Shown in pieces: positions 3,771 through 7,476 of a stretch of DNA of 32,135 nucleotides. The notes beneath the pieces are model-generated. The model did not search any database and had not been told where the DNA came from. It saw only the letters and a program-made list of their open reading frames with translations. The position numbers were made by a program, and so were the translations under genes. Each line of letters begins with the position of its first letter. Within the stretch, counting starts at the first letter, position 1. This stretch comes from Parcubacteria group bacterium CG08_land_8_20_14_0_20_48_21. Lineage in GTDB: Bacteria; Patescibacteriota; Patescibacteriia; UBA1544. The stretch is from the NCBI GenBank assembly GCA_002774425.1, contig PEYJ01000030.1, positions 1 through 32,135 of the forward strand, given 5' to 3'.

Positions 3771-3833
3771 GTCTCTAGGTGCGTACAACGGCAAGAAAAT
3801 ACGCGCGAAACAGACGTGACCTATCAGCGTTTT

Positions 3834-4211
3834 ATGACAACTTCATTGAAAGATATACTGGAATTAGCGAGAAAGACAGGCGATACGCTGATTGTGGCAC
3901 ATGCGGATGGTACGGCGAGTGTGCTGATGCCTCTTGCGACCTACCAAAAATTTATTGCAGATACGAGTGCACATGCGAATAAAAAAATGGCTGAAAATAG
4001 CATATATGAGGGAATGATCCTTGGGAAAAACCGGGAAAGCACCATAGCTCTTGACAATGAAGGGTATTATGGTACAATGGCGGGGTTGTCTGGTGTATCT
4101 ACAGCGGGCATGCCACGGGAAGAAAAGCCAGAAATACCCTTTGAACCCGAACCTGAACCACAAAAAGAAGAAACCCTGGAAGATTATTTCTACATTGAGC
4201 CGGTTCAGTAA
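3834..4211 (+). CDS. Hypothetical protein with Phd/YefM-like N-terminal segment and acidic tail, between fusA and tuf
   Basis: MTTSLKDILELARKTGDTLIVAHADGTASVLMPLATYQKFI resembles the Phd-type '..VVI...G.PVAVLMSLEEYE.L' segment; tail EKPEIPFEPEPEPQKEETLEDYFYIEPVQ; start at 3834 chosen because it has the local UAUG context. Confidence 0.65.
   Translation: MTTSLKDILELARKTGDTLIVAHADGTASVLMPLATYQKFIADTSAHANKKMAENSIYEGMILGKNRESTIALDNEGYYGTMAGLSGVSTAGMPREEKPEIPFEPEPEPQKEETLEDYFYIEPVQ
4051..4078 (+). promoter_or_regulatory. Candidate internal promoter for tuf: TTGACA-16-TACAAT
   Basis: TTGACA 4051-4056, 16-nt spacer, TACAAT 4073-4078, inside the preceding ORF about 220 nt upstream of the tuf ATG. 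Confidence 0.55.
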
Positions 4212-5489: not shown

Positions 5490-5525
5490 TCTCCGCCTCT
5501 CCCGATTTTTCGGGAGAGGCGGAGA
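5490..5525 (+). other. Perfect 16-bp hairpin between tuf and rpsJ, no U tract
   Basis: TCTCCGCCTCTCCCGA (5490-5505) TTTT TCGGGAGAGGCGGAGA (5510-5525). Confidence 0.8.
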
Positions 5526-5549: not shown

Positions 5550-5903
5550 ATGACTGAAGTAAAAAAAAGAAAGGCAAGCGCGAAAATGAAAGAAGGGGTG
5601 CACCAGCGTATACGCATCAAAATCAAGGCGTTTGACCACAAGATTATTGACCAGTCAACGCGCACGATTATGGATACGGCGCAGCGCTCCGGAGCCAAAA
5701 TTGCCGGTCCCATATTGCTGCCGACTGAAAAGAAAAAATACACGGTGTTGAAATCAACCTTTGTGCATAAAGATGCCCGCGAACAGTATGAAATGCGCAC
5801 GCATAAGCGATTGATTGATATTTATGATCCGAGCGCGGCAACGGTTGATGCGCTCATGAATCTCAATCTGCCTGCGGGTGTTGATGTGGAAATAAAAATG
5901 TAA
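5550..5903 (+). CDS. rpsJ: 30S ribosomal protein S10
   Basis: [73 protein letters not shown]; start within the larger ORF 5400-5903. Confidence 0.95.
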
Positions 5904-5931
5904 ACTCCAATCGCCCTCTTGTGGAAGGCGC

Positions 5932-6089
5932 AACCCCGACGTTTTCGGGCAGTACGCTCTCACCAACACGGCGAATAAAAGGAAATTGACAACCAGGGAT
6001 CCAATTCAGCACGAGAATAGCGCGGTTAGCGCACTGATAAGTATTTAAACGTTAAATATTTAAAAGGCTCCGTGTTGTCGGGGTTTTTT
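5932..6089 (+). ncRNA. Candidate structured RNA/attenuator in rpsJ-rplC gap, ending in GC stem plus U6
   Basis: AACCCCGA (5932-5939) and CAACACGG (5964-5971) both pair with the contiguous strand CCGTGTTGTCGGGGTT (6070-6085), followed by T tract 6084-6089; competing local hairpin CCCGA (5935-5939)/TCGGG (5945-5949); internal hairpin TATTTAA-acg-TTAAATA. Confidence 0.5.
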
Positions 6090-6218
6090 GTTACCTACAC
6101 CTCTTTCCACCTGTGCAAAAAAAAACATGGGGAGAAATATGTGGAGGCAACGCTCCTCGCATGCCGCATCGCTGCATAATTTTCTGCAAGCTGTTGGTTA
6201 ACAAACTCGTACATCGTT

Positions 6219-6839
6219 ATGAAGATGCTTATAGGAACAAAACTGCGCATGACCCAAATCTATTCCCAGGAGGGGAAAGTGGTTCCGGTTACGATCGTAA
6301 AAGCTGATCCGTGTACCATAGTGCAGGTAAAAACCGAACCTACGGACGGTTATAATGCCGTACAGCTTGGCTATGGGGCAAAAAAATATGCGACCAAACC
6401 TATGGCAGGCCACACCAAGGGCAAAGGTCCTTATCGGCTTTTACGTGAGTTTCGTGTTGAGGATGTGGGAACTCTTAGTAGTTTAAAAATAGGTGATGCG
6501 TTGACCATCGCGCAATTTACCGAAGGAGATATGTTGGTGGTAGCGGGCATCTCAAAAGGCAAGGGGTTTCAGGGTGTCGTGAGGCGCCACGGTTTTGCCG
6601 GACAGCGTGCGACCCATGGCAATAAGGACCAGTTGCGTATGCCCGGATCCATTGGCTCAACGGACCCACAGCGCGTCTTTAAAGGTATGCGCATGGCAGG
6701 ACATATGGGTGCGGATCGCGTAACGGTGCATAATTTGAAAGTCGCAAAAGTTGATACCCAGCTCAATGAGCTCTACATAGCTGGTGCGATTCCCGGAAGC
6801 AGAAACAGCATCATACTCGTAACAGCAAACGCCGCGTAA
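6219..6839 (+). CDS. rplC: 50S ribosomal protein L3
   Basis: LIGTKLRMTQIY...GKGFQGVVRRHGFAGQRATHGNKDQLRMPGSIGSTDPQRVFKGMRMAGHMG. Confidence 0.97.
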   Translation: MKMLIGTKLRMTQIYSQEGKVVPVTIVKADPCTIVQVKTEPTDGYNAVQLGYGAKKYATKPMAGHTKGKGPYRLLREFRVEDVGTLSSLKIGDALTIAQFTEGDMLVVAGISKGKGFQGVVRRHGFAGQRATHGNKDQLRMPGSIGSTDPQRVFKGMRMAGHMGADRVTVHNLKVAKVDTQLNELYIAGAIPGSRNSIILVTANAA

Positions 6840-6843
6840 TCTT

Positions 6844-7476
6844 ATGGTGAAAGTTTCCGTATACAATCAGGAAGGAAAGTCTGTCGGAGAACTTGAACTC
6901 GCGCAAGATGTCTTTGCGGTTGAGATGCGTCCCCAGGCGATAGCCCAAGTCGTGCATGCGCAAGCTGCATCGGCACGCAAACCGTATGCGCATACAAAAG
7001 ATCGTTCAGAGGTACGTGGTGGAGGAAAAAAGCCCTGGAAACAAAAAGGTACGGGACGTGCGCGACACGGATCCATTCGGTCGCCGCTTTGGGTTGGCGG
7101 AGGCATAACGTTCGGACCTACCAAGGAGCGTAACTATGCTAAAAAAATAAATAAAAAAGCGAGGCGCGCCGCGGTCAAAATGTGCCTTTCGGACAAGGTA
7201 AGAGGAAACAAGTTTATTGTTCTGGAATCATTGGGCGAACTCAAGAAGACGCGTGATCTGGAAAAGATGCTCATGAAACTGCCATCGGCGAAACATTCCA
7301 CACTCTTGACGCTCGGAGTTGCTTCTCAAGACGTACTGCGCAGCGTACGCAATCTGGAGCATCTCGCGACCCTTCCGGCAAAAAGTTTAAATGTGGGAGA
7401 TGTACTGAAGTATGAGTATCTCGTTACGACCAAAGAGGGTGTGGAAACTATGACGCAGGCACTTGCCAACATATAA
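6844..7476 (+). CDS. rplD: 50S ribosomal protein L4
   Basis: AHTKDRSEVRGGGKKPWKQKGTGRARHGSIRSPLWVGGGITFGP. Confidence 0.97.
   Translation: MVKVSVYNQEGKSVGELELAQDVFAVEMRPQAIAQVVHAQAASARKPYAHTKDRSEVRGGGKKPWKQKGTGRARHGSIRSPLWVGGGITFGPTKERNYAKKINKKARRAAVKMCLSDKVRGNKFIVLESLGELKKTRDLEKMLMKLPSAKHSTLLTLGVASQDVLRSVRNLEHLATLPAKSLNVGDVLKYEYLVTTKEGVETMTQALANI

Follow-up and report, generated by a model that had tools for sequence, protein, structure and literature searches.

An attenuator-like RNA element between rpsJ and rplC in the S10 operon of Patescibacteria

In the window analysed here (a whole stretch of 32,135 nucleotides of DNA from a Parcubacteria group bacterium), the genes for ribosomal proteins S10 and L3 are separated by 315 nt, rpsJ ending at 5903 and rplC starting at 6219, and the question that this locus raises is what occupies the space between them. 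By the ORF list this is the longest intergenic gap from rpsL to secY, the runner-up being rpsG–fusA with 170 nt, so that both the size and the rank given to it in the initial annotation hold. The genes that frame it, rpsJ coming after tuf, are as follows:

5550–5903, + strand: rpsJ (ribosomal protein S10), the 5′ neighbour (Pfam PF00338, E 1.8e-36)
6219–6839, + strand: rplC (ribosomal protein L3), first gene 3′ of the element (Pfam PF00297, E 1.2e-17)
6844–7476, + strand: rplD (ribosomal protein L4), second gene 3′ of the element (Pfam PF00573, E 6.1e-62)

Farther upstream, a 131-aa ORF at 3816–4211, between fusA and tuf, has no Pfam match, and a 16-bp hairpin with a 4-base loop lies between tuf and rpsJ at 5490–5525; this hairpin lacks a T-run on the + strand, and on the − strand TTTATTACTT comes next.

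The nearest relatives of the window genome in the searched set belong to the same class, with none closer, and a DNA search for relatives, in which the gap plus flanking sequence was the query, gave matches only at the 3′ end of rpsJ. For these reasons rplC was located instead by protein search in class members and the DNA upstream of it extracted. Long gaps proved to be the rule, 140 of 145 same-class entries having at least 150 nt between rpsJ and rplC (median 253), and a terminator-like hairpin followed by a T-run, that is, an intrinsic terminator ahead of the gene presumed to be regulated, is present in 103 of 141 distinct class gaps, where dinucleotide shuffles would give 7.2 and the opposite strand has 16. 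Outside the class, where sampling of the phylum is thin, 25 gaps in which rpsJ precedes rplC have a median of 150 nt, and 13 of the 21 suitable ones carry a terminator (0.95 expected; 7 on the opposite strand). One class member (L155) has a gap of 15 nt and no element. In another (L146) no recognisable rpsJ is found in the 900 nt upstream of rplC, yet rplC is immediately preceded by a promoter-like site, an AGGAG sequence and a terminator; the presence of the element there even without an adjacent rpsJ supports rplC as the gene served. Gaps of about 270–290 nt between rpsJ and rplC were also seen in several Bacteroidota (at loci such as L031, L042 and L079).

The initial annotation had described the gap of the window as a structured, terminator-ended and attenuator-like element, a description borne out by same-class relatives, in which this place likewise holds a long gap with a terminator and with rods that recur. 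The pairings that had been pointed out are exact, and the smaller helices named between the long-range arms are visible in the sequence and turn up in computed folds; the folding energy itself is unremarkable, both for the whole gap (z −1.1) and for 5920–6095 (z −1.4). The local hairpin CCCGA/TCGGG (5935–5949) is present as described and excludes the pairing of the 16-bp helix discussed below. Folding also brought out what had not been listed, namely a longer rod that encloses this hairpin, and a local terminator hairpin with the core CUCCG/CGGGG. The features on which the argument turns are these:

5911–5974, + strand: rod, with base TCGCC/GGCGA, then TTG/CAA, GGCG/CGCT and inner stem CCCGA/TCGGG; predicted default fold
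5931–5934, + strand: loop strand YAAC, here CAAC; the recurrent loop in A-type relatives
5932–5939, + strand: AACCCCGA, arm 1 of the long-range helix, complementary to 6078–6085; within the rod
5950–5954, + strand: loop strand NAGUR, here CAGTA; AAGTR in most relatives, CAGT also in L211
5964–5971, + strand: CAACACGG, arm 2 of the long-range helix, complementary to 6070–6077; in the 3′ strand of the rod base
5980–5983, + strand: AGGA directly 3′ of the rod; a landmark at this place in many relatives, read by eye
5986–5993, + strand: TTGACAAC, alternative partner of 6074–6081 (8 pairs, two G-U), pair probability about 0.3
6062–6089, + strand: local terminator-like hairpin AAAAGGCUCCG-UGUUGU-CGGGGUUUUUU, core 6068–6083 and then U6; −12.9 kcal/mol alone
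6070–6085, + strand: CCGTGTTGTCGGGGTT, segment common to the local hairpin and the 16-bp long-range helix

The rod, whose base in the window pairs TCGCC (5911–5915) with GGCGA (5970–5974), is predicted to form once position 5975 has been transcribed, and it is presumed to be the protein-binding domain of the element. Its start lies 7 nt past rpsJ and no promoter-like site was found in the rpsJ–rplC gap of the window, including the stretch between rpsJ and the rod and that after the terminator; the element therefore probably acts inside a longer transcript.

About a quarter of class gaps contain a rod whose internal loop reads YAAC/(A)AGUR. The pattern of the loop plus short stems was matched by 41 of 147 entries, about 37 of which were kept, with 3 matches among reverse complements and 5 among reversed sequences, and these controls offset only partly the fact that the loop and rod patterns were framed after the data had been viewed. 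In an alignment of 30 members, from which the window was left out and which were chosen partly on pairing, 89.5% of cells pair as against 66.1% after shuffling, and two-sided changes number 73 as against 25.5. Because of that mode of selection the pairing test was repeated on 57 segments (the window included) selected by sequence pattern only, and here too the outer stems pair more often than shuffled ones (65.8% as against 49.4 ± 2.2%), the observed value exceeding the maximum of 2000 shuffles, 55.6%. A covariance model (R1) derived from the 30-member alignment, which lacks the window, has its top match on both strands of the 32 kb at 5922–5963, with 17.2 bits and an E-value of 0.11, which is not significant window-wide; within 5800–6300 (501 bp) the same match has E 0.0018. 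A match at the expected place supports membership of the window in the group of rods, alone being no proof of it; together with the recurrent loop and the covariation among relatives it suggests a conserved structured sensor. Across 58 whole genomes the model gave six matches at E ≤ 1, four of them in rpsJ–rplC gaps, of which two (in G048 and G008) were outside the training set, while neither S10 nor L3 lies close to the remaining two (E 0.25 and 0.77).

Mimicry of a binding site on rRNA was considered and set aside: R1 gave only two weak minus-strand matches on the E. coli rRNA operon and pieces of 23S rRNA from the window genome, a simple pattern scan yielded nothing convincing, and no rRNA match that would name the ligand was found in these sequences. 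Several relatives (L105–L108, L110, L126 and related gaps) have, directly past the rod on its 3′ side, an AGGA or AGGAG that looks like a Shine-Dalgarno sequence, although in those inspected no start codon followed. At L108 321–349 the flpD RNA family of Rfam (RF01737) gave a match that, at 29.3 bits, stays below the gathering score of 40.

The internal loop also appears with its strands in the opposite order. AAG[AT], a stem and then AAC are found in 37 of 142 class gaps, with 2 and 2 in the strand controls; patterns with altered loop letters, run as further controls, were found in 1 to 12 gaps, so that the exact letters do not account for all of this signal, and chance probably produced a few of the 37. 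Both loop types scored in only one gap. As read from the sequences, the AAGW…AAC gaps may be circularly permuted forms of the YAAC/(A)AGUR site, AAGU and AAGA being a difference between them. A further group is marked by GGTTCT…GATAACRATTTGC, its 3′ pattern being found in 20 of 142 class gaps (several of which belong to other groups) with 1 in each control, and in 4 of 24 gaps from other classes. In this group the 3′ strand of the rod base looks, by eye, complementary to the upstream arm of the terminator, which would make formation of the rod and formation of the terminator go together. Neither main loop type fits 69 of the 142 class gaps.

At the other end of the element, two pairings compete for the segment that runs into the U tract. 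As the initial annotation had noted, AACCCCGA and CAACACGG are jointly the exact reverse complement of CCGTGTTGTCGGGGTT, after which T continues to 6089, and this is not a product of chance: when the terminator arm was kept constant and the DNA upstream of it was shuffled by dinucleotides, none of 5000 shuffles reached the full 16-nt two-piece match, the best being 15, once. The local hairpin, whose core reads CUCCG-UGUUGU-CGGGG-U6, is modest on its own, its score being matched by 3.6% of gap shuffles. For 5904–6092 the predicted energies are −54.4 kcal/mol for the rod state, −52.5 for the 16-bp helix and −50.1 for the rod together with the local terminator, and in the predicted ensemble an inner-stem pair of the rod has a probability of 0.98, the 16-bp helix one of 0.02 and the local hairpin one of 0.001. 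The 16-bp helix excludes both the rod and the local hairpin. Since at equilibrium the 3′ part is mostly engaged in other pairings, any action of a terminator here must be kinetic.

In the reading first proposed, the role of intrinsic terminator falls to the 16-bp split helix, the CCCGA/TCGGG hairpin then serving as antiterminator. The complementarity of the helix is exact and non-random and runs into the U tract, and its energy comes within 2 kcal/mol of the rod state. Yet it would have to prevail over a rod that forms first and is predicted to dominate the ensemble, its arms are more than 90 nt apart, a distance that makes a terminator slow, and a local terminator is available in the window. 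Nor do relatives generally pair the rod with the terminator arm, as only 3 of 36 A-type gaps do so at p ≤ 0.05, which leaves this pairing unsupported as a general mechanism; the helix, as judged from these comparisons, is peculiar to the lineage of the window or to few lineages. On this evidence we consider the split helix unlikely to be the terminator, and the local hairpin at 6062–6089 the likelier one. Because the 16-bp helix disrupts both strands of that hairpin, it is more likely, by analogy with the upstream arm of relatives described next, to be its competitor, and the earlier reading of it was probably the reverse of its role.

In relatives the terminator is a local hairpin, and an arm upstream of it competes for the pairing. 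Three arms X, Y and Z can be distinguished in 15 sequences of one type, most of them from one family; Y can pair with either X or Z, and Z leads into the T-run. In four of these sequences Y has changed from C to T, and there X and Z have both changed from G to A; with matching changes in all arms, this has the signature of a three-arm antiterminator/terminator switch in that family. Across the class there is a moderate excess of competing upstream arms, the competitor of the terminator arm surpassing those of shuffled sequence at p ≤ 0.1 in 36 of 131 gaps (13 expected) and at p ≤ 0.05 in 17 of 131 (6.6 expected). For the window the automated test of a competing arm was not significant (p 0.56). 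TTGACAAC stands at the place of arm X, and by analogy may have its role. Mutually exclusive pairings are shown in one family by the three-arm changes and in the window by exact alternatives.

The explanation that we favour, and hold to be probable with some reserve, is that the element is a cis-acting transcription-attenuation leader of the rplC–rplD–… part of the S10 operon, whose rod is probably bound by a ribosomal protein. The rod with its recurrent internal loop would fold first and would probably bind a ribosomal protein encoded downstream, for which L4 or L3 are natural candidates by position and analogy, L4 (rplD) being the candidate by analogy with E. coli. Once the rod had formed, AACCCCGA and CAACACGG would be sequestered and the local hairpin could form, stopping transcription before rplC. 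When no protein is bound, the two segments would be free to pair with 6070–6085, the local hairpin would come apart and the polymerase would read through, so that in effect a ribosomal protein would switch off its own genes. We infer the production of the transcript, the involvement of a protein ligand and the direction of control, and the ligand is named by genomic position and analogy alone.

One could also see in the gap an unregulated operon boundary, at which rpsJ closes an rpsL–rpsG–fusA–tuf transcript at a plain terminator and rplC opens a new one. The position of rpsJ after tuf would fit, as would the consensus promoters in the gaps of some relatives (19 of 141 class gaps, with 9.2 expected and 5 on the opposite strand). 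This reading leaves unexplained, however, both the recurrent, covarying rods and an antiterminator arm that changes together with the terminator, and it finds no promoter in the window, past the terminator or elsewhere in the gap; we regard it as quite unlikely.

The initial annotation had suggested as a further possibility an independent small RNA, which with a length of about 160–180 nt could be a housekeeping RNA that lies in the rpsJ–rplC gap by chance. Such an RNA would be consistent with the constant genomic place, with a promoter of its own in some lineages and a terminator in most, and with the absence of a 6S RNA elsewhere in the genomes tested. The specific identities fared poorly, however. 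The 6S RNA model (RF00013) had no match at E ≤ 0.001 in 19 genomes, and neither had RF00169 for SRP RNA, RF01854 giving only two weak sub-cut-off matches, in other genomes. With positive controls, SRP RNA was not found by these two Rfam families in the window genome and the other same-class genomes (19 in all), and no full-length SRP54 GTPase domain was found in 11 genomes, only short P-loop-like matches. An SRP RNA identity is unlikely because the full-length SRP54 match is absent as well, and the class may be one without a signal recognition particle. Moreover, the element is more variable in sequence and structure than known housekeeping RNAs are, the alternative partners of the terminator point to control of read-through, and at L146 a promoter and the element stand directly before rplC where rpsJ is not adjacent. 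An independent RNA is therefore improbable. That a metabolite rather than a protein is sensed, as in a riboswitch, is highly improbable. A compact recurrent internal loop on an attenuator-like platform would fit it too, but the element was seen only before ribosomal-protein genes, and ribosomal-protein sites commonly take the form of a short irregular rod that has a single internal loop.

Whether the relatives form a family is a broader proposition, on which our confidence is evenly divided: they may represent an undescribed family of ribosomal-protein attenuator leaders, widespread in Patescibacteria, that would control the S10 operon from inside and carry its loop in both strand orders (YAAC…AAGUR and AAGW…AAC) as a permuted binding site. 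If this is true, it provides a concrete cis-regulatory RNA for ribosome production in a largely uncultivated phylum, and an instance of S10-operon autoregulation far from E. coli that uses another position and another RNA; lineages that apparently differ in loop orientation would then amount to a natural experiment in which a protein site was rearranged and its function kept. In the window the Rfam gathering score was reached only by four tRNAs and by no leader family, and in 18 relatives’ loci none of the ribosomal-protein leader families in Rfam was found at E ≤ 0.5. No published description of an rpsJ–rplC element was found in the literature searched, which included few subscription papers.

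Among known systems the nearest in kind is the S10 operon of E. coli, where a leader ahead of rpsJ is bound by L4, which favours early termination (PMC10931766; PMC2704228). Like that leader (uL4), the element has rplC, rplD and further S10-operon genes downstream, and like it the element is structured and has a Rho-independent terminator, the premature termination in E. coli being promoted by a ribosomal protein (PMC10931766). The two differ in place, since the E. coli leader lies in the 5′ UTR upstream of rpsJ and the window element after rpsJ, outside the place of the former, a difference that the initial annotation had rightly pointed out; they differ also in that the element matches no leader family of Rfam, in the window or in the 18 relatives’ loci, and has L4 as a candidate ligand. 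The rpsJ motif RLC-47-1 of Peptostreptococcaceae is likewise a candidate ribosomal-protein leader in the S10 operon, but is set apart by its location in the rpsJ 5′ UTR and is known from three genera of one family (PMC11109978). The rpsL-leader and other attenuators that came out of an analysis of premature terminators (Naville and Gautheret 2010, PMC2965389) share with the element a terminator and alternative antiterminator pairings before ribosomal-protein genes, and a place that is kept across divergent species as sequence and structure differ (PMC2965389). Theirs precede other genes, and whereas the published text describes no globally conserved feature for the rpsL-leader (PMC2965389), here an internal loop recurs.
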